NCBI GenBank assembly: GCA_004764695.1
Contig: SMSO01000035.1
Coordinates: 2,956,040 to 2,978,539 of the forward strand
Reading direction: 5' to 3'
Length of the DNA stretch: 22,500 nucleotides
Origin: Schizochytrium sp. TIO01
Taxonomy: Eukaryota > Sar > Bigyra > Thraustochytrida > Thraustochytriidae
This document shows, piece by piece, positions 827 to 21,946 of the stretch. The translations under genes were made by a program, and so were the position numbers. The notes beneath the pieces were generated by a model that worked only from the letters and a program-made list of their open reading frames with translations, had not been told where the DNA came from and did no database searches. Numbering within the stretch: the stretch's first letter is position 1; the number at the start of each line of letters is the position of its first letter.

Positions 827-3800
827 TTAGCAAAGATACGTGCCCAGCAATCCCAATGAAGCCATTAGGACACTGTTTGCAGCTTCTAAACGACCCACCT
901 CCAGCTTCTGTTCATCAAGGCATTGCTGTTTACCTCTTAGATTGGTCTTGTGGCTAGTTAAACTACTCTGCGCAACTTGTTTGCCACGTTTCCCTGCAAG
1001 CGGCATAGCTAGGGTCCTGTTCACGGCATGGATGCAACGAAGCTCACGAGCTACCTCTTCAAGATTTTTCTTCCTTTCCTGTTCAGCATAAATCTGGTTA
1101 TTCAGGTCAAGCTCACGTTGGATACTTTTATCACCTCGCCAGGGGTGTCTATCAATCAATACATCATTCTGTTAGACAAACAATTCCTTTTCTTCATGTT
1201 TTTCTTCAACGTACTCAAAGACTGTGATACTGCGATTTGCCCGAAGTCCTTCAAGCACCGCCATACGAACTTTTGTGCTGCTCTTGTCCTTCCCGTTGAT
1301 ACTATAACACGATTTACAAATAATGAATAGAGTTAGCACTCTGCTATCAAACTGCACTTTTCAAGGACATCGCCATATTTGCTCTTATATCCTCCAAGTG
1401 TTCTATATTTATCAACCGCAGTAGTGTACACCAATAATTTTGACCTTTTCCACTTTGGTGCCCAAAGATAACTTGTTTAACTCACGATAATGCTGTCAGA
1501 ACCTTGTTCTTCTTCAACACCTCACCTAAAGCCACACAAAACTTGTCGTCAATGCTCATTGCGCTCAAGCTGTTAGATTGCAGTTAGCAATAAAATAAAA
1601 ACGTTGTTGCGTGACATAACCCGTTCCAAATCCAACGTTTGTCTTCTGACAGTGTCACCAATGGCTTCCTCATGGTTTCAAAAAACAAGCATCGCTTCCT
1701 GCTCTACTTGCTTCAATCAAACACATAACTGCACAACTTCTTTCGACCCTCTGATCATTTCTGCATCAGTCCGAGCCCCCCCCCCCAAAAAAAAAACAAA
1801 AAATTCATTCAACTCACAATAGCGCTTTCAAAACCTGGTTTTCCTTGAGGGCATCCAGAAAAGCGTGAAAGCCTGTGTTATCAAAGTTCTTTGTACCCAG
1901 ACTATTAGTCCAAAACGAAATAGCAAACCATTTCATTTGTTTCCATTTATACATCAAAGTCAGTTATCTTAACATATAGTCTTCCTGCACAATGAGTACG
2001 GAGCCACTCTAAGTGCAACTCAATGCTTCTAAATTTCCATCGTTTACTTGAAACAGACAAGAATTTGAACAAAGGCCCGTGTTTTCTCAGAATTGTCTGG
2101 CACATAGATTGCTCAACTCACCCTAGGTTTTTCAGCGAATGGTTTTTCTGGAGTACCTCCGCAAACGTCGCACAACCTTTATCGCCAACAATGCTTCCAT
2201 TCATCCTGTTGAAAAAGAAAAATGTGTCAATTCATATCAAAGTCAGTCATCCCCTTGCAAAACAAGCTACAATGGGTAACTTTTCGTACCGGCAATAGCC
2301 TGATAATTTGTTAGTCTAACTCACAGCAACGTTTCCACCGTCTTGTTCTCCTTCAGTACTTCCGCCAAGCCCACCCATCCTTCGTCGTTGATTTTGTTAG
2401 ATGTAAGGCTGCGCATCCGTACTCGGCCAAAGACATCAAATCGTTTTCAGAATCGTAATCATTCCAATGCTTCCTGTCAGTATATCATACGAATAACCCT
2501 CTTCTTGCATGCATGCAAAGGGTATAACAGTCAACTCACTCTAGCATGGTCAACGTATGGTTTGTCTTGAGTGCATCCGCCAACGCTGCACAACCTTTGT
2601 TGTCAATATTGTTGTTCCCCAGCCTGTTGGTCCACAATTGACAATGAAAAAATTAAAGTGATTTCACTCCAGTTTGAACGTCAGCCACCTTGCTCAAACA
2701 TTTCTCACCATGCGTTTTTAATTTTAAAAAGATCAAGGCAAAACCTCTCCTTGTGCCCCACATGTTCACCATTTTACAGACACATGAATATACTTGAAAG
2801 TCTTGTTCAACTCACCCCAATTCTGCCAGCGTCTTGTTCTTCTTGAGTGTATCTGCCAGCACTGTACAAGCATGGCTGCCAACGTTGTTACCACGAAGTC
2901 TGCAAGCTCCCGCTTGTCAAAAATTATGCAACAGTATCGTTTAATCAATCGACAGTAACGTCAGCAAACTTCCTGCACAACTATCAGAAACATTCCTGTA
3001 TCCGGCGGCATACATAGACTACATATACTTACTGTAGAATTCTCAGCGTTTCGTTTACCTTGAGCACCTCGGCCAAAGCCAAACAACCTTTGCTGCCAAT
3101 CGTATTGTCATCAAGACTGTTCATTCAAGAGATCACCATGCCAACGCATCGCACAATTTGTTAGCTACCTATCATATACCTCTCTTATATGCACGACAAG
3201 ACATAACATCTAGCAAATATTGCAAAGGCCGACTATACTCACTTTACTGTACTCAGTGACTGGTTGTTCTTTAGACTATCAGCTAAAATGACGCAATCGT
3301 CAGCCCCGATATTCCTTTCAATCCTGCTCGCTCACAAGTAAAACCACATTAATTTATACCATCGTCAGTCGTCATTCTCATTTTGTTACCAAAAAACTCT
3401 TTAATGACCGGCAAAGAGACCACATATCTTGTCTTACTGCTTCAACAAACTCACTCCAAACATTTCAGCGTCTCATTCAGCTTCAGAGCTTCCGCCAAAA
3501 TCGCAAAAGCTTCACTCCCAAGATTGTTATCCAAAAGCCTGTGCACCCATTGATAACAAGGAGTATCATAGTAACCACCAAATAATCTCACTGTTAGCAG
3601 TTTTCAAATAATGATCCTACAAAGTCGTCCCCAATGACATGCTCGTCAACAAAAAAAATGACAACCTGTCAGGTGTGACCTAGATGACATTTCACCTTGA
3701 CTTAGCTGAACTCACCCCAAACGCTTCAAAGCTCGATTCTTCTGGAGAACACCATCCAAGCCCTTGATCATTTCAGTGGTGAATGGGACGTTACACAAGC

Positions 3801-5106: not shown

Positions 5107-5224
5107 ACATTCGATCATACCACGCGGGTAACACCTCATCTCATTCGCACTGAGAAGTAAAGTCGCGTAGGGCCGGGTCAGTAGTATGATAGGGGACTGC
5201 ATGCGAAGCCCCGGTGTTGAATGT
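5107..5224 (+). rRNA. 5S ribosomal RNA, copy 1
   Basis: 118 bases matching the layout of eukaryotic 5S rRNA. The ends ACATTCGA and TTGAATGT pair as helix I. Inside are the CATACCAC segment of loop A, an A-box-like GAAGTAAAGTCG, and a C-box-like segment around GTATGATAGGGGACTG. A run of seven T begins at the 3' end (5224-5230), giving a Pol III terminator. It is identical over all 118 bases to the copy at 18172-18289. It sits alone between two divergent protein genes, not in a tandem array. The type of RNA is clear; the exact ends are from pairing. Confidence 0.9.
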
Positions 5225-5230
5225 TTTTTT
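5224..5230 (+). terminator. Pol III T-run terminator of 5S copy 1
   Basis: Seven consecutive T directly at the 3' end of the 5S gene, sufficient for Pol III termination. Confidence 0.7.
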
Positions 5231-6479: not shown

Positions 6480-9400
6480 ATGACTGTGGCAAAAAGCATT
6501 AAGGGCATCACAGAAGATACGACAGAGATAGAGTAAGTTCACGATGGAAAGAGGAGATGACAGAAGAAGGAGGCATCGCGTCGTCGATGTGTTGTAGTAG
6601 TCAGCTTTAGTTTTATACTAGTAGTGGTACTCATGAAGAAGTTGGAAATGGCATATACTTACTCTCACTTGTTCACTAACAAATAAACAAACACAGTCTT
6701 GGTTGGAAACAGATTGGTCGTAAGGGCGCAAAGGCCGTCGCAAAGGCACTCGAGGGATGCAAGAACCTTCAAGAATTGTGGTACGTTTGTGGAATCATCA
6801 ACGAGGGAAAGCTATCGTAATAGTCAGGACCAAGCTTTTTCTTTCTTTCTTCTTAGTGCTTGGTGTTTGTAGTACTGCTGGTACACTACCTACGTAGTTC
6901 ACGTAGTTGGGTACTTTAGAAAGGCAAAGAAGTCTTTTCTTTTTTACAAAGACAAGAAGGAAATCTATATAATTTGATACGCAGCAGCAGCAGAAGAAGA
7001 AGAGCTGATTGCTTTTTATTGTGAGGAAAAAAAAAAAAAAAAAAAAAAACAGGATCAACTGACTGGAGCTGTCTTTCCTGACAACAACGAATGAACAAAA
7101 CAAACTTATTCATTTATACTCACAGTCTTTCTGGCAACAACATTGGCGATGAGGGCGCAAAGGCCGTCGCAAAGGCACTCGAGGGATGCAAGAACCTTCA
7201 AACTGTAAAGTACGTTTGTGGAGTCATCAACGAGGGAAAGCTATCGTAATAGGCAGGACCAAGCTTTTTCTTTCTTTCTTTTTAGTGCTTGGTGTTTGTA
7301 GTACTGCTGGTACACTACCTAAGTAGTTTACATAGTTGGGTACGCAAAGAAAGGCAAAGAAAGGCAAAGAAGTTTTTTCTTTTTTACAAAGAGAAGAAAG
7401 AAATCTATATAATTTGATAGGCAGCAGCAACAGCAGAAGAAGAAGTGATTGCTTTTTAATGTGAAGAAAAACAAAACAAAACAAAACAGGATCAACTGAC
7501 TGGACCTGTCTTTCCTGACAACGAATGAACAAAACAAACTTATTTATTTATACTCACAGTCTTAACAACAACAAGATTGGCTATGAGGGCGCAAAGGCCG
7601 TCGCAAAGGCACTCGAGGGATGCAAGAACCTTCAAACTGTAAAGTACGTTTGTGGAATCATCCGCGAGGGAAAGCTATCGTAATAGGCAGGACCAAGCTT
7701 TTTCTTTCTTTCTTTTTAGTGCTTGGTGTTTGTAGTAATGCTGGTACACTACCTACGTAGTTTACGTAGTTGGGTACGCAAAGAAAGGCAAAGAAGTCTT
7801 TTTTTTTTTACAAAGAGAAGAAGGAAATTTATATAATTTGATAGGCAGCAGCAGCAGAAGAAGAAGAGCTGATTGCGTTTTATTGTGAGGAAAAACAAAA
7901 CAAAACAGGATCAACTGACTGGACCTGGCTTTCCTGACAACGAATGAACAAAACAAACTTATTCATTTATACTCGCAGTCTTGGTTGGAACAACATTGGC
8001 GATGAGGGCGCAAAGGCCGTCGCAAAGGCACTCGAGGGATGCAAGAACCTTCAAACTGTAAAGTACGTTTGTGGAATCATCCGCGAGGGAAAGCTATCGT
8101 AATAGGCAGGACCAAGCTTTTTCTTTCTTTCTTTTTAGTGCTTGGTGTTTGTAGTAATGCTGGTACACTACCTACGTAGTTTACGTAGTTGGGTACGCAA
8201 AGAAAGGCAAAGAAGTCTTTTCTTTTGTACAAAGAGAAGAAGGAAACCTATATAATTTGATAGGCGGCAGCAGCAGAAGAAGAAGAGCTGATTGCTTTTT
8301 ATTGTGAGGAAAAACAAAACAAAACAGGATCAACTGACTGGACCTGTCTTTCCTGACAACGAATGAACAAAACAAACTTATTCATTTATACTCACAGTCT
8401 TCATGGGAACAACATTGACGATGAGGGCGCAAAGGTCGTCGCAAAGGCACTCGAGGGATGCAAGAACCTGACTTATCTGAAGTACGTTTGTGGAATCATC
8501 CACGAGGAAAAGCTATCGTAATAGGCAGGACCAAGCTTTTTCTTTCTTTCTTTTTAATGCTTGGTGTTTGTAGTACTGCTGGTACACTACCTAAGTAGTT
8601 TACGTAGTTGGGTACGCAAAGAAAGGCAAAGAAGTCTTTTCTTTTTTACAAAGAGAAGAAGGAAATCTATATAATTTGATAGGCAGCAGCAACAGCAGCA
8701 AAAGAAGAAGAAGAGCTGATTGCTTTTTATTGTGAGGAAAAACAAAACAAAACAGGATCAACTGACTAGACCTGTCTTTCCTGACAACGAATGAACAAAA
8801 CAAACTTATTCATTCATACTCACAGTCTTTGCAACAACAACATTGGCTCGGAGGGCGCAAAGGCCGTCGCAAAGGCACTCGAGGGATGCAAGAACCTTCA
8901 AACTTTACAGTACGTTTGTGGAATCATCCACGAGGGAAAGCGATCGTAATAGGCAGGACCAAGCTTTTTCTTTCTTTCTTTTTAGTGCTTGGTGTTTGTA
9001 GTACTGCTGGTACACTACCTAAGTAGTTTACGTAGTTGGGTACGCAAAGAAAGGCAAAGAAGTCCTTTCTTTTTTACAAAGAGAAGAAGGAAGTCTATAT
9101 AATTTGATAGGCAGCAGAAGCAGCAGAAGAAGAGGTGATTGCTTTTTATTGTGAGGAAAAACAAAACAAAACAGGATCAACTGACTGGACCTGTCTTTCC
9201 TGACAACGAATGAACAAAACAAACTTATTCATTTATACTCACAGTCTTTCTGGGAACAAGATTGGCTCGGATGGCGCAAAGGCCGTTGCAAAGGCACTCG
9301 AGGGATGCAAGAACCTTCAAACTTTAGAGTACGTTTGTGGAATCATCCACGAGGGAAAGCTATCGTAATAGGCAGGACCAAGCTTTTTCTTTCTTTCTTT

Positions 9401-12400
9401 TTAGTGCTTGGTGTTTGTAGTACTGCTGGTACACTACCTAAGTAGTGTACGTAGTTGGGTACGCAAAGAAAGGCAAAGAAGTCTTTTCTTTTGTACAAAG
9501 AGAAGAAGGAAATCTATATAATTTGATAGGCGGCAGCAGCAGAAGAAGAAGAGCTGATTGCTTTTTATTGTGAGGAAAAACAAAACAAAACAGGATCAAC
9601 TGACTGGACCTGTCTTTCCTGACAACGAATGAACAAAACAAACTTATTCATTTATACTCACAGTCTTCATGGGAACAACATTGACGATGAGGGCGCAAAG
9701 GTCGTCGCAAAGGCACTCGAGGGATGCAAGAACCTGACTTATCTGAAGTACGTTTGTGGAATCATCCACGAGGGAAAGCTATCGTAATAGTCAGGACCAA
9801 GCTTTTTCTTTCTTTCTTTTGAGTGCTTGGTGTTTGTAGTACTGCTGGTACACTACCTAAGTAGTTTACGTAGTTGGGTACGCAAAGAGAGGCAAAGGAG
9901 TCTTTTCTTTTTTACAAAGAGAAGAAGGAAATCTTTATAATTTGATAGGCAGCAGCAGCAGCAGCAGAAGAAGAAGAGCTGATTGCTTTTTATTGTGAGG
10001 AAAAACAAAACAAAACAGGATCAACTGACTGGACCTGTCTTTCCTGACAACGAATGAACAAAACAAACTTATTCATTTATACTCACAGTCTTTTTAGCAA
10101 TAACATTGGCTCGGAGGGCGCAAAGGCCGTCGCAAAGGCACTCGAGCGATGCAAGAACCTTCAACAATTGCAGTACGTTTGTGGAATCATCCACGAGGGA
10201 AAGCTATCGTAATAGTCAGGACCAAGCTTTTTCTTTCTTTCTTTTTAGTGCTTGGTGTTTATAGTACTGCTGGTACACTACCTACGTAGTTTACGTAGTT
10301 GAGTACTTTAGAAAGGCAAAGAACTATTTTCTTTTTTAGAAAGAGAAGAAGGAAGGGCAAAAAAGGGAATCTGTATAATTTGATAGGCTGCAGCAGCAGA
10401 AGAAACCGTGATTGCTTTTTACTGTGAAGAAAAAGAAAACAAAACAGGATCAACTGACTGGACCTGTCTTTCCTGACAACGAATGAACAAAACAAACTTA
10501 TTCATTTATACTCACAGTCTTCATGGGAACAACATTGGCGATGAGGGCGCAAAGGCCGTCGCAAAGGCACTCGAGGGATGCAAGAACCTGACTTATCTAA
10601 GGTACGTTTGTGGAATCATCCACGAGGGAAAGCTATCGTAACAGGCAGGACCAAGCTTTTTCTTTCTTTCTTTTTAGTGCTTGGTGTTTGTAGTACTGCT
10701 GGTACACTACTTAAGTAGTTTACGTAGTTGGGTACGCAAAGAAAGGCAAAGAAGTCTTTTCTTTTTTACAAAGAGAAGATGGAAATCTATATAATTTGAT
10801 AGGCAGCAGCAGCAGAAGAAGAAGAGGTGATTGCTTTTTATTGTGAGGAAAAACAAAACAAAACAGGATCAACTGACTGGACCTGTCTTTCCTGACAACA
10901 ACGAATGAACAAAACAAACTTATTCATTTATACTCACAGTCTTTCTAGCAACAAGATTGGCTCGGATGGCGCAAAGGCCGTTGCAAAGGCACTCGAGGGA
11001 TGCAAGAACCTTCAAACTTTAGAGTACGTTTGTGGAATCATCCACGAGGGAAAGCTATCGTAATAGGCAGGACCAAGCTTTTTCTTTCTTTCTTTTTAGT
11101 GCTTGGTGTTTGTAGTACTGCTGGTACACTACCTAAGTAGTTTACATAGTTGGGTACGCAAAGAAAGGCAAAGAAAGGCAAAGAAGTTTTTTCTTTTTTA
11201 CAAAGAGAAGAAAGAAATCTATATAATTTGATACGCAGCAGCAGCAGAAGAAGAAGAGCTGATTGCTTTTTATTGTGAGGAAATATGAAACAAAACAAGA
11301 TCAACTGACTGGACCTGTCTTTCCTGACAACCAATGAAAAACAAACTTATTCATTTATACTCACAGTCTTGAGAGCAACAACATTGGCTCAGAGGGCGCA
11401 AAGGCCGTCGCGAAGTCTCTGCACAAAGCATGTCCTTCTGTTCGAGTCCAGTAAGTTCCGTTCCCTCTGCTTCTGGTCCTAGCTTTCGCAGAGCCTTGTC
11501 ATCTATGGTTCTCTCCAAGTCTCCATGGACTTGCGAAGCGGTCTTTAGATGCGTTAATCGTGCTTCTAACAAACGCTCTTATTCTCTTTCATTCGTGTAT
11601 TCACATGCGTTACAAAACGCAGCTATGACAGCTTTCGTGGAACCCCTAAAGAATTGCTCGAAAGGGTGTGTTCTCCTGGAGAGGATATTTACTCCTCATC
11701 AGAGACCGATTTCTGTGCCTCGAAGAGCAAGCAAGATGGCATATATGGGTAAGTTCATGCGTTTTTTTTTTGTTTGGGATCGTGTGATCATTCATTCCAC
11801 AAATTGTGTTGTTGAGGTATTTTGAAGATCCTAACTTTTGCTTTTGCCTCTGCTGGTTCTCTCTGTGTCTCCATAGACTTGCGAAGCTATCTTTAGATAC
11901 GGTCATCGTTATTCTATCAATTACTGTTATTCTCTTTCGTTCGTTTTTTTATTCGTTTACAAGACGCATTCTCTATGATGCATATTTGTCTTTTAAAGAA
12001 TTGTTCGAAAGGGTGCGTTCTCCTGGAGAGAACATATCTGGGTAAGTTCATGCGTTTTTTGTTAGGGATAGTGTGATCATTCATTCCACAAATTGTGTTG
12101 TTGAGATATTTTGGAGATCCTAACTTTTGCTTCTGCCTCTGTTGCTGCTTCAAATGTCTTCACTTTGCTCGTTTGTTTACGTCTTCTTGTTCACCTCAGA
12201 GAACGGCCGGATGGAGCGAGCGTGAGTTTCGCTGATGTGGTGCAGCTTGCCAAAAAAGTCTCGGACTTGCGCGCGGACCCAGACGGGGTCAGAGAAAACT
12301 CCCTGCAGACTGGGATTGCCTTGCTTGAGGAATTCGTAGGACCGGCGATCCAGGGCTACTTTGGCCAAGTGAAGTTGCGACAGCTTTCCGCTGACATCAA

Positions 12401-14888
12401 GAACTCCAAAGAGGGTCTTGACGCACTACAAGGCCAGATTCGTGCAAGCTCTGGTGATGGCTTGCCCAGCCTCATCGAAAAGCGGAACGCCGAACGAAGT
12501 CGCCTGCATTCGCTTTTGCAGGTTGTGTACCCATGGGTTCGCGCAAAACTTTGCGAAAGTGATGAAGATATAGGGCGAGAATTCAAAGTGAGAGTCGAAA
12601 GTTTGGTAGATCATCTAAATATCAAACCTGCGCCAGTCACGGAAGAGACCAGCACAGATGACTTTAAACACTGCCAAGAACTCGTTGTTCAGGCTGTCAA
12701 ATGCGTCGAAGAGTATAAGAGGAGTGGAGAAGGACAATCCAACAACATTGGTGAACGAAGCCAACAAGCTGTAAAGCGCGTTATCTCTCGATTGTCTGAG
12801 CTGAAGCTTGGTGATGGATTATTGGTTGCCCTGAGGACACCGGAGCAGGCCATGGAGCTAAAACCGGAGTTGTCTGAACTTGAGCGTGCTCTTCAAGAAG
12901 AAATCGAAGCTCTACAAGGAGATATACTTCGTGCCCAATTGTCCGAAATACTTTGCGCAATAAGTGTAACATTTGCTCGATTTGAAGGATATTCTAAAAG
13001 TGCTGCGTTAAATGAAGCGAGCAAGTGCGCACCAGAAGAGCTCTCTGGACTGTATGACTATTTAGGACTGGGTTTGAAAGAACCTTCTGTCTCAGATGTT
13101 GAAGAATTATACCAGAAACTTGACAAGTCGAGGATAGCCACAGAAATTTTGAAGAGAGCCAAAGAAGAACTCGAAATAGAGGACATGAATGAGGAAGATC
13201 AAGCATATTTTAGAAATAGAATGAAAAACCAAGAGCTCATTCTCTCTCAAGACAACCCTATCGACCTTAGCAAAGCTTTTCGTCATAAGCTTGCTGAGAC
13301 TCTGCAACACGCGCAGGAACATTATCCAGAGTTGCTGCAAGATAGAGCCTGGCTGGAAAGGCTTCACGTAAGTGCAGAGGGTGTTTTTGAAGTAGCATGT
13401 TCTGACCTTTGGTTGACGAATGTCACAGTCGCGGACTTCAAGCCTGTTGGCGAACCCCTTGCTTCCAGAGGTGGCAAGAGAGTACAAAAGGTTCTTGACA
13501 ACGTTGGTAAAACTATTGTTTTGAAACAATTTCAACTCGGCCATTCGAGCCAACACAAAATATTTTACAGGCAAGCTGCAAATATGGGAAACGTGGTGTC
13601 TCAGCACGTGATACGTATCACTGGCGCTTTTGTGGATACTTCTAATGGAGAACCGCGTGGCTGTATCCTCATGCCTTTCTACGAGCAAGGTGACCTTGCC
13701 AAGTGGATTGAGCGTCATCCTAACGAAGGCAAAGCAGTGCGCGACCGACTTGCTATGGGCCTGCTTATCGGTGTGGCGGATTTGCATACCCATGGCATTG
13801 TGCATTGTGATATCAAACCAGAAAACATTTTTCTCACAAGCAACGGGACACCATTGATCGGCGACTTTGACGGCATCAAGGTTGCAGACTACACTGCAAC
13901 TTACACATCACTCCAGGCAACGCCACGGTACGTTGCCCCCGAGTTGCAGAATGGGCCTGTAGATAGGTTTGAAACAGCGATGGACATGTACTCTGTGGGC
14001 ATAAGCTTAAAGGAGCTGTATCCTACTGAGCGAACCGCTGCAATGCAGGCACTTATCGATGCTCTTACAGCAACAGACCCTGGCCAGCGTCCAACTGCTC
14101 ACCAAGCACTCCAACATGAAGCTTTTGGAGCTCCTAAGATCCCTGTCAAGATATGTCTAGTATGCATGGAGGAGCATCTGCTTTCCGAGGGCACAAGCTG
14201 CGAGGAGGGAGACTTCCTTTGCAGAGACTGTATCAAATCTGCAGTAGAAGCGGCGTCACAGCCACTTGCTAACGTAAGAGTGGATGCTGATGGAACGATG
14301 GCATGCATGAAACCCGAATGTGGGGGAAGAATATCAGGTCAAGAAATCACTCGTCTTGCACCAACAGCTTTGAATCATCTTTTGTTGATTGCGAAGATGA
14401 AGGCAGAAAATGAAGCAGCAGTTTGGGCGGAGAAGGAGATCCAAAGGCGCATAGCAGAAGTTTTGCGTGCAGATGAACAGAATCGCGACGCACAACGGCA
14501 TTTACTTCATATTCAAGAGAAGATCTTGAGCACGAGTTGTCCGAACTGTAAGGCATATGTACACGATTTTGCCGGTTGCTGCGCTGTAAAGTGTGGTAAT
14601 GATACTTGTGGTCATCACTTCTGCGCTTGGTGTCTTGAGTTTAGTTCTCAGAATTCACGAGCTTGTCATGCTCATGTGAGAACCTGCTTGAAAAAGCTTG
14701 GGCAAGATCCATTTTTTCCTGATTCATTTGAGCAGGTTCGTGAGGCGTGGCAGTTGCTCCGCGCAGAACGTCTGCGTGAGTACTGGAATGCACAAATTCA
14801 GGATAGAAATCTTCGACTCGTTCTGAGAGAGTTTTTGTCACCTTTGCTAACACCAGATATCGTTGGCGCAAACTTTAGATTGGAATAA
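6480..14888 (+). CDS. LRR - protein kinase - RING1/RING2 (RBR-like) fusion protein
   Basis: Predicted 16-exon gene, 1,317 residues, all introns phase 2. Exons: 6480-6532, 6697-6780, 7126-7209, 7560-7643, 7979-8062, 8398-8481, 8826-8909, 9245-9328, 9664-9747, 10089-10172, 10518-10601, 10940-11023, 11367-11450, 11623-11748, 11964-12041, 12200-14888. Residues 1-18 are a short leader; 18-354 are twelve 28-residue LRRs of the ribonuclease-inhibitor type; 354-422 a linker from two related exons; 422-830 helical sequence of unknown fold; about 832-1064 a protein kinase; 1074-1129 RING1; 1202-1251 RING2 with catalytic-type Cys1215. No signal peptide or membrane segment is seen, so a cytoplasmic sensor is inferred: LRRs bind, kinase and ubiquitin ligase signal. 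The frame stays open across every junction, which is strong support for one gene. The start ATG is followed by 17 codons and a GTAAGT donor, like exon 1 of the divergent neighbour. Function is not proven. Confidence 0.85.
7027..7049 (+). repeat. A23 homopolymer in the first repeated intron
   Basis: A 23-base A run replaces the AAAACAAAACAAAACA tract found at the same place in the other introns of the array. Other units keep the interrupted form, so this is a local expansion. Confidence 0.85.
8063..8481 (+). repeat. LRR unit duplicated at 9329-9747
   Basis: Exon 8398-8481 and exon 9664-9747 are identical, including changes found in no other unit (GAC and GTC giving IDD and KVV). The 3' halves of the introns before them share private variants (TTTTGTACAAAG and GGCGGCAGCAG). 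The 5' halves differ, so the copied tract appears to begin inside the intron. Confidence 0.75.
11623..12041 (+). repeat. Duplicated linker exons 14 and 15
   Basis: The exons at 11623-11748 and 11964-12041 share a segment read as KELLERVCSPGEDI and KELFERVRSPGENI, and their flanking introns also match in part (for example a shared GACTTGCGAAG segment). The second exon is shorter, lacks the serine-rich 3' half, and uses an AAG acceptor shifted upstream. Both keep phase 2 at both ends, so either can be included or skipped without changing frame. The first has two in-frame acceptors nine bases apart (exon start 11623 or 11632). Confidence 0.7.
12200..13427 (+). other. Helical middle region of the fusion protein
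   Basis: Part of the last exon, residues about 422-830. It is rich in Leu, Glu, Lys, Ala and Gln with heptad-like stretches, and no known domain motif is visible. It joins the LRR array to the kinase and may be an oligomerisation or autoinhibitory region; that role is inference. Confidence 0.5.
13428..14126 (+). other. Protein kinase domain with DFD motif
   Basis: Residues about 832-1064. Visible landmarks: VLK with the likely beta-3 lysine Lys864; HCDIKPEN catalytic loop with Asp959 and Asn964; GDFDG with metal-binding Asp977, where the usual DFG glycine is Asp; VAPE at 1000-1003; the alpha-F Asp1017 in DMYSVG; and DPGQRPTA with Arg1052. No clear glycine-rich loop is seen, and the alpha-C glutamate position seems to be Gln880. 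The lysine and the catalytic and metal-binding aspartates are present, so activity is plausible but not certain. The HCD form resembles tyrosine-kinase-like and receptor-interacting kinases in general; finer classification needs a search. Confidence 0.85.
14154..14321 (+). other. RING1-like zinc domain
   Basis: Residues 1074-1129. Cysteines occur as C-x2-C-x11-C-x3-D-x2-C-x2-C-x24-C-x4-C, closely matching RING1 of RBR ubiquitin ligases, where the fourth ligand is normally His. Here that position is Asp1093. In the family RING1 recruits the ubiquitin-charged E2 enzyme. Confidence 0.75.
14538..14687 (+). other. RING2 (Rcat)-like domain with candidate catalytic cysteine
   Basis: Residues 1202-1251. 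The spacing C-x2-C-x9-C-x4-C-x4-C-x4-C-x2-C, followed by HAH and a last Cys, is the same as that of human parkin RING2 as I recall it. The third cysteine, Cys1215, falls on the ubiquitin-accepting catalytic cysteine. No cysteine occurs in the 72 residues between RING1 and RING2, so a normal IBR domain is absent. Confidence 0.75.
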
Positions 14889-18171: not shown

Positions 18172-18289
18172 ACATTCGATCATACCACGCGGGTAACACC
18201 TCATCTCATTCGCACTGAGAAGTAAAGTCGCGTAGGGCCGGGTCAGTAGTATGATAGGGGACTGCATGCGAAGCCCCGGTGTTGAATGT
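18172..18289 (+). rRNA. 5S ribosomal RNA, copy 2
   Basis: 118 bases, identical to the copy at 5107-5224 and in the same orientation, 13 kb away. The similarity stops at the helix I ends on both sides, so the gene itself, not a larger segment, is shared. T5 (18292-18296) and T6 (18301-18306) runs follow as Pol III terminators. Confidence 0.9.
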
Positions 18290-18291
18290 TC

Positions 18292-21023: not shown

Positions 21024-21097
21024 GTCTCCGTGGCCAAGTTGGATAAGGTGCCTGACTACGAATCAGGAGATCGTGGGTTCAAGTCCCGCCGGAGATT
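21024..21097 (+). tRNA. tRNA-Arg (anticodon ACG)
   Basis: Complete cloverleaf: acceptor stem GTCTCCG with CGGAGAT (one G-T pair), D arm with GTTGGATAA, anticodon stem CCTGA/TCAGG with loop CTACGAA, and T arm GTGGG-TTCAAGT-CCCGC. No intron. The internal A and B boxes are intact, and a T6 run at 21115-21120 serves as terminator. ACG is read as ICG after A34 editing and decodes CGN arginine codons. Confidence 0.95.
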
Positions 21098-21114
21098 CTG
21101 GAACTTAAAGTGTG

Positions 21115-21848: not shown

Positions 21849-21875
21849 TATTCACTTCCCTAGTCTTGAAGTGAG

Positions 21876-21946
21876 TGCCTTCGCGCGGAATCGAACCACG
21901 GTCGTCACGGCCACAACGTGACGTTCTACCATTGAACTACGAAAGC
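21876..21946 (-). tRNA. tRNA-His (anticodon GTG)
   Basis: Cloverleaf on the minus strand: acceptor GCTTTCG with CGAAGGC (one T-G pair), D arm GTTCAATGGTAGAAC, anticodon stem GTCACG/CGTGAC with loop TTGTGGC, T arm CGTGG-TTCGATT-CCGCG, and discriminator A. No intron. As in other eukaryotes, the G at position -1 would be added after transcription. Confidence 0.95.

Follow-up and report, generated by a model that had tools for sequence, protein, structure and literature searches.

The window, as the whole analysed stretch of 22,500 nucleotides is called here, covers positions 2,956,040 to 2,978,539 of the forward strand of contig SMSO01000035.1 (assembly GCA_004764695.1) from the thraustochytrid Schizochytrium sp. 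TIO01. It contains a plus-strand gene in which twelve leucine-rich repeat (LRR) exons of 84 nucleotides (nt) each are followed by a large exon for a protein kinase and a cysteine-rich module, and in which a few codons on both sides of each intron are hypervariable. The gene probably belongs to a multigene receptor family in which five or so codons on the concave face of the LRR solenoid are kept different by diversifying selection, with units being exchanged between loci. The parts of the gene are the following.

6480..6532, plus strand: putative first coding exon from sequence reading, MTVAKSIKGITEDTTEI and a split codon
6697..6780, plus strand: LRR exon 1, first-type, acceptor ACAAACACAG, encoding LGWKQIGRKGAKAVAKALEGCKNLQEL
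7126..7209, plus strand: LRR exon 2
7560..7643, plus strand: LRR exon 3
7979..8062, plus strand: LRR exon 4
8398..8481, plus strand: LRR exon 5, identical to exon 8
8826..8909, plus strand: LRR exon 6
9245..9328, plus strand: LRR exon 7
9664..9747, plus strand: LRR exon 8, identical to exon 5
10089..10172, plus strand: LRR exon 9
10518..10601, plus strand: LRR exon 10
10940..11023, plus strand: LRR exon 11
11367..11450, plus strand: last (12th) LRR exon, capping type, KSLHKACPSVRV
6723..11415, plus strand: tandem array of exon plus intron, units of ~419 nt, 11.1 copies, 90% matches
11623..11748, plus strand: inferred linker exon, YDSFRGTPKELLERVCSPGEDI..., partial duplicate near 11994, borders from sequence reading
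12201..14888, plus strand: large exon (open reading frame) with helical region, protein kinase domain, C-terminal RING/IBR-like Cys-rich module and stop

The twelve LRR exons at 6697-11450 have AG/GT borders and phase-2 junctions and lie where an earlier reading made from the letters alone (the sequence-only reading) had placed them. When the joined LRR part was run against Pfam, LRR_6 was found in 11 stretches (E 5e-75), and the 28-residue units are of the ribonuclease inhibitor (RI) type, matching by sequence the RI-type solenoid of ribonuclease inhibitor (PDB 1dfj, E 7.8e-25) and the RI-type LRRs of NLRs, e.g. NLRP2 (PDB 9l4k). The large exon encodes a protein kinase domain with catalytic motifs (Pfam Pkinase, E 1.3e-28), and a fold search with a model of this exon gave kinase folds only among the matches listed. 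Many cysteines of the C-terminal module are invariant in 11 out of 11 aligned paralogs, and comparison with PDB gave weak matches to RNF4, Ariadne and parkin. Pfam scans of the kinase exon and the joined LRR (11451-12200 lying outside the scans) revealed neither NACHT/NB-ARC nor ROC-COR, and LRRNT/LRRCT caps are absent from the Pfam list for the joined LRR. No signal peptide is evident by eye in the putative first coding exon, nor are the signal peptide and transmembrane helix of a plant-type LRR receptor kinase.

Two transcriptome-derived relatives, P0077 (with a name beginning 'Auranti') and P0030, were compared with the array. The best match of P0077 is C31:8498633-8499445, with 94% in the effector part against 74% for the next best, and its four LRR units correspond to four genomic exons at this locus, the three split codons that lie between these matching as well and the final split codon doing so in bases 1 and 2. 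Since P0077 joins matching exons and split codons, it backs the splice pattern proposed for the array in the window. Its N-terminus MTKVTRIIDIKEDTTEVD is resembled by the putative first coding exon and its post-LRR part by the inferred linker exon. The C31 locus itself is a kinase-less LRR and RING/IBR-like gene with P0077 as its relative, and the lack of a kinase in P0077 indicates a flexible order of modules. P0030 has about ten LRRs, counted by eye, and a C-terminal module as in P0077.

An AlphaFold model of P0077 (mean pLDDT 78.7, mostly >90 over the LRR) contains five short strands at residues 16-18, 44-46, 72-74, 100-102 and 128-130, of which the last four correspond to codons 26-28 of its four repeats, in agreement with the earlier placing of the variable codons on the LRR strand. 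The helices start at codon 7 or 8 and lie within the conserved core. The x residues of the LxxLxLxxN motif face the concave side of an LRR.

Within the first 11 exons of the window 30 of the 84 columns are variable, among them all 14 columns that make up codons 2, 3, 25 and 26 together with bases 1 and 2 of split codon 28 (Fisher p = 4.6e-8), and the mean difference is 0.162 between exons and 0.046 between introns. The sequence-only reading had described a core almost fixed even at silent sites in all twelve exons. This holds for codons 10-23 of the first 11, which are nearly invariant apart from two exons with Val13, two with GTT at Val14 and one with Arg20, but the 12th lacks the fixed core and reads GAKAVAKSLHKACPSVRV. 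The words QT, QE, QQ and TY, thought to stand directly before the intron-split codon, do vary but are codons 25-26, and a conserved Leu/Val codon 27 stands between them and the split codon. Likewise, most core codons lack silent change, which does occur at codons 3, 4, 7, 14, 24 and 27, that at 24 and 27 being linked to the 25-26 word in the wider family; and variation clusters at the strand as proposed, but codons 5, 7, 8 and 9 vary too, codon 8 lying off the concave face. The per-codon dN/dS that had been suggested as a check was approached with Nei-Gojobori proportions of replacement (pN) and silent (pS) differences, giving only 0.525/0.314 for the five exposed codons. The signal in the window comes from the comparison with the introns and the core and not from pN/pS inside the exposed codons. 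Raw dN/dS inside these codons was rejected as a decisive test, both in the window and in the 21 pairs described below (0.382/0.296).

A scan of the genome (64 Mb), in which an 18S/ITS stretch looks thraustochytrid, gave 101 matches to the core pattern at no more than three mismatches and 51 matches to the kinase exon, some of them pieces of one locus. Of the 136 LRR exons scanned in the loci examined, 82 passed the array filter, of which 73 are internal, 68 distinct and 67 with long flanks, the set leaving out last exons, older arrays and exons missed by the scan, such as two with insertions in C32-2.89M. The exons C32:2893924-2894004 and 2894812-2894892 carry an in-frame G/T-rich insertion of about 15 nt at codons 2-3. 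The amino-acid diversity of the 68 distinct internal units is 0.90 at codon 2, 0.91 at codon 3, 0.41 at codon 25 and 0.71 at codon 26, followed by 0.54 at codon 5, 0.55 at codon 8 (mostly Asp or Ser) and no more than 0.24 at the remaining full codons, and the split codon shows 11 distinct pairs of first two bases. Equal-length phase-2 LRR exons and diversification of the concave-face codons, which together mark a family with LRR-exon shuffling, are both present.

The limits of the variable blocks were followed in 294 pairs of units whose introns differ by <3%. At exon nt 1-4, which include the third base of codon 1 adjoining codon 2 (0.000), mismatch is 0.00; it rises to 0.55-0.70 at nt 5-10 and returns to 0.00 at nt 11-12. 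At nt 13-16, which hold codon 5 and, as a silent site, the third base of Asn4, it is 0.22-0.30, followed by 0.00 at nt 17-19 and 0.49-0.65 at nt 23-25 (codon 8). Between nt 26 and 72 it is at most 0.17 at few sites and elsewhere near 0, and at nt 73-84 it is 0.25-0.58 save for the second base of codon 27, which is fixed. In the flanking introns the 50 columns closest to the exon on each side show 0.003-0.007 and those further out up to 0.067.

The 2,211 pairs of family units are not independent. Selection was addressed with 21 non-overlapping nearest pairs, 11 of them between arrays, at 1.7% intron difference. Path counting gave 77.5 replacement differences at 203 exposed sites (pN 0.382) against 108/6197 in the introns (Fisher 4e-72) and 8/279 at silent core sites (pS 0.029; Fisher 4e-25), with 7/918 for core replacement and 8/37 for silent sites at Leu24 and codon 27. 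A similar picture was seen in the colinear pair C35-2.43M / C32-2.58M, where five exon pairs with matching flanks were compared (seven were tried and two dropped for an intron difference >0.12): exposed pN is 0.435, the core has pN 0.046 and pS 0.036, and kinase pS is 0.079, or 0.117 without its apparently converted last third (Fisher 5e-12 and 1.7e-8). Replacement change at the exposed codons thus exceeds the intron, core-silent and kinase-silent rates. Over the three LRR exons found at its best locus, C33-2.56M (86%), P0030 departs from that locus at 8 of 15 exposed residues and at 7 of 73 others (p = 0.0004). The kinase exon has a dN/dS of 0.31 over 105 pairs, which shows purifying selection on it.

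Between loci, the units resemble each other more closely than the kinases do: in 15 of 55 locus pairs there are common units with <3% intron difference despite a kinase dS of 0.115-0.282. As units pass between chromosomes, intron distance is not a clean clock and was rejected as such; twin loci with a kinase dS of 0.013 show no LRR change. The best reading is that exchange of units between chromosomes, which the sequence-only reading had missed, accompanies selection. Array length changes fast, the twin loci C32-2.89M and C35-2.71M having identical kinase exons (0/2685) with one LRR exon missing from the latter, and the colinear pair having 10 and 7 scanned exons in the stretches examined. Among the 30 best loci, some of them duplicates, 19 have at least 80% identity, and 9 of these are located no further than 100 kb from a contig end, compared with at most 11.6% of the genome (p = 1e-4), and 1 of the 11 more distant ones does so. 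The stretches C24:1-7200 and C32:2889535-2896734, near contig ends, have 7.2 kb in common with no substitutions and six gaps, either a recent end duplication or an assembly duplicate. The LRR array at C5:13250-14598, whose units closely resemble units of other loci and near which none of the 51 kinase matches lies, is possibly a reservoir of units.

Further features of the window lie outside this gene. A second LRR gene stands head-to-head with it on the minus strand at 1486-3799; most of its exons (9 of the 10 found) are 84 nt long, its exons and introns are unlike, and it is probably an older array. Two dispersed 5S rRNA genes with equal Rfam scores are located at 5107-5225 and 18172-18290 (plus strand), tRNA-Arg(acg) at 21024-21098 (plus strand) and tRNA-His(gtg) at 21875-21946 (minus strand).

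On the reading that we favour, the product would probably be an intracellular receptor with a short N-terminus and a solenoid of 28-residue RI-type LRRs, one repeat per exon, after which come a helical region, the kinase and a zinc module resembling RING/IBR. An exposed beta-strand would be cut at codon 28 by each phase-2 intron, so that each strand would combine residues 25, 26 and 28 of one exon with residues 2 and 3 of the following exon. With introns nearly identical and the exon core frozen, units could be duplicated, lost or exchanged without breaking frame or fold, such exchange presumably taking place between loci of which many are near contig ends, while diversifying selection would maintain the differences at the five or so concave-face codons. 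The family looks like an immune-type recognition repertoire; its likely use would be to bind variable non-self ligands (viruses, bacteria, non-self cells), with signalling through the kinase and perhaps, should the zinc module have E3 activity, ubiquitin transfer. The pattern of turnover fits unequal crossover or gene conversion together with selection for variety, and new mutation and reshuffling of old variants fit it alike. A more far-reaching version, which we consider less likely than not, is a germline library of LRR units that are nearly clonal, introns included, except for about six effectively randomised codons in each; half-strands would be joined across the intron, and unit exchange between chromosomes, possibly with alternative splicing of the 84-nt exons, would give combinatorial recognition in a third eukaryotic lineage.

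Several observations weigh against diversifying selection on a receptor of this kind. Codon 8 is strongly variable without being a concave-face position, and 22% of the close pairs differ silently at the third base of Asn4. Silent change by path counting is high inside the exposed codons, at 14.5/49 (pS 0.296) beside pN 0.382 in the 21 pairs and 0.268 beside 0.435 in the colinear pair. P0077 and its best locus differ at 0 of 112 LRR residues and at 13 of 269 effector residues, and in the duplicates C30-1.73M / C5-1.79M (kinase dS 0.013) all four LRR exons are identical in residues. RING/IBR is matched by Pfam in at most 3 of 11 paralogs, weakly and below the cut-offs. The unchanged pairs imply that the exposed codons are not steadily fast everywhere and that intron distance underestimates the age of units, and the relatives differ in behaviour, since P0030 shows exposed change and P0077 none. 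As to the silent steps, they arise because two or three bases are often exchanged in a codon whose residue has changed: where the residue is the same, in 40 of the 84 exposed codons of the 21 pairs, there are 0 silent differences at 24.3 silent sites, and in the wider set such differences occur at codon 2 in 13.7% of 73 pairs and at codon 3 in 15.8% of 57, with 0/337 at codon 25 and 0/234 at codon 26. What stands of the original proposal of diversifying selection is the clustering on the strand and the excess of replacement over intron and core-silent change in the family and the colinear pair, set against the high exposed pS and one unchanged ortholog pair.

Solvent-exposed LRR positions are generally tolerant, and exposed positions could drift freely under relaxed constraint while concerted evolution keeps introns and core alike. 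The closer likeness of units than of kinases between chromosomes, the unchanged LRR of P0077 and the high pS inside exposed codons would all agree with this, but drift should not exceed the silent rate, and the exposed pN is several times the kinase pS of the colinear pair and the core pS of the 21 pairs. Moreover, codon 1, which adjoins codon 2, shows no mismatch at its third base, and none of the 63 distinct exons encodes I, L, V, M, A or T at codon 2 (7/63 do so at codon 3), making relaxed constraint improbable. A dedicated mutator acting on the exposed codons would account for the single-base sharpness of the blocks, the multi-base codon changes and the raised path-counted pS; against it, the third base of four-fold codons at codon 2 is T in 25 of 27, codons with unchanged residue lack silent differences in the 21 pairs, and there are 0 stop codons in the 136 exons kept by the scan, all of which fits selection on amino acids and not blind mutation, and we regard such a mutator as very improbable. 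That the array is a pseudogene or an assembly artefact is barely credible: several related loci have stops in the kinase exon, and the C24/C32 stretch is free of substitutions, but the kinase exons of the window and of 14 others chosen for comparison are all open and under purifying selection, and transcriptome-derived relatives join exons of like kind.

The closest contender, partly compatible with the favoured reading and for us a real if minority possibility, is that older alleles are reassorted by short gene conversion and selection mainly keeps variety. Many variable positions use one codon per amino acid (Gln25 CAA 50/50, Thr26 ACT 33/33, Gly2 GGT 9/9), 220 of 254 differing codons at codon 2 in close pairs differ at two or three bases, and silent differences are located in codons with changed residue. 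Codons 24-28 vary as a linked block, silent sites included, and no link of left and right words was found within the exon (p = 0.73) or across the intron (p = 0.56), in a test low in power because most words occur once; single-codon links are present, e.g. 8-27 (p = 0.004). Against this, there are 47 different codon 2-3 words, of which at most 9 are common to arrays, one of the 9 inside a single array split by binning; Gly is encoded in four ways at codon 3 and Arg in two at codon 2; the silent sites of codons 1, 6 and 7 show no variation along with them; and selection for variety would still be required. Diversifying selection on the concave-face codons together with exchange of units is preferred.

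When the family is compared with known systems, ribonuclease inhibitor has the same class of solenoid and is an inhibitor without a kinase. In lamprey VLRs the variable residues lie on LRR concave strands, and the genes are assembled somatically from cassettes and have LRRNT/LRRCT caps; the concave-strand variation is common to both, whereas the family here gives no sign of such caps in Pfam for the joined LRR. The likeness to VLRs and NLRs drawn by the sequence-only reading is an analogy only. NLRs have in common with the family RI-type LRRs and gene conversion with positive selection in a recognition module, the latter seen in zebrafish NLR-B30.2 genes, where, in the available part of the account, selection is reported to act on B30.2 and not on the LRRs (PMC4852459). 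Identity as an NLR and as an LRR-ROCO gene was rejected, no NACHT/NB-ARC and no ROC-COR being present in the scanned kinase exon and joined LRR.

Brown-algal ROCO genes, according to the part of the source available, encode one LRR per 72-bp phase-2 exon and show exon shuffling, alternative splicing and four positively selected concave sites (PMC11378527). One LRR per exon, phase-2 introns, shuffling and selected concave sites are thus found in both, whereas the algal genes have a 23-residue LRR, selected sites 14, 16, 18 and 19 inside the exon and a ROC-COR GTPase effector (PMC11378527), and the family here has 84-bp RI-type LRRs, a strand cut by the intron and an effector of kinase and RING/IBR-like module. 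In Tetrahymena, again from a partial source, 90-bp phase-2 LRR-exon arrays occur, the youngest concentrated near centromeres and chromosome ends and some fused to kinases (PMC6564038). Tandem equal-length phase-2 exons, changes in array length, young members near chromosome ends and kinase fusions are alike, the exon length and the ciliate host different, and the leucine positions in a legend suggest that the intron falls at the LxxLxL strand there too; no codon-level analysis of the concave face was found in the available part of that account, in which the word concave is absent (PMC6564038).

No description of the family was found in the literature on thraustochytrid or labyrinthulid LRR genes or on 84-bp phase-2 LRR exons (titles and abstracts of a limited collection). 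From brown algae, exon-per-LRR families are already known in which concave residues are under selection, and from Tetrahymena, arrays of LRR exons equal in length; the family works like both systems and belongs to neither, with no ROC-COR found and another exon length and LRR class. The sharp contrast of a silent-fixed codon 1 beside near-randomised codons makes it a good microbial system for telling selection and unit exchange apart, and a third case that differs in LRR class, effector and exon length would suggest that phase-2 LRR arrays have been reached repeatedly among eukaryotes as a means of building recognition repertoires.

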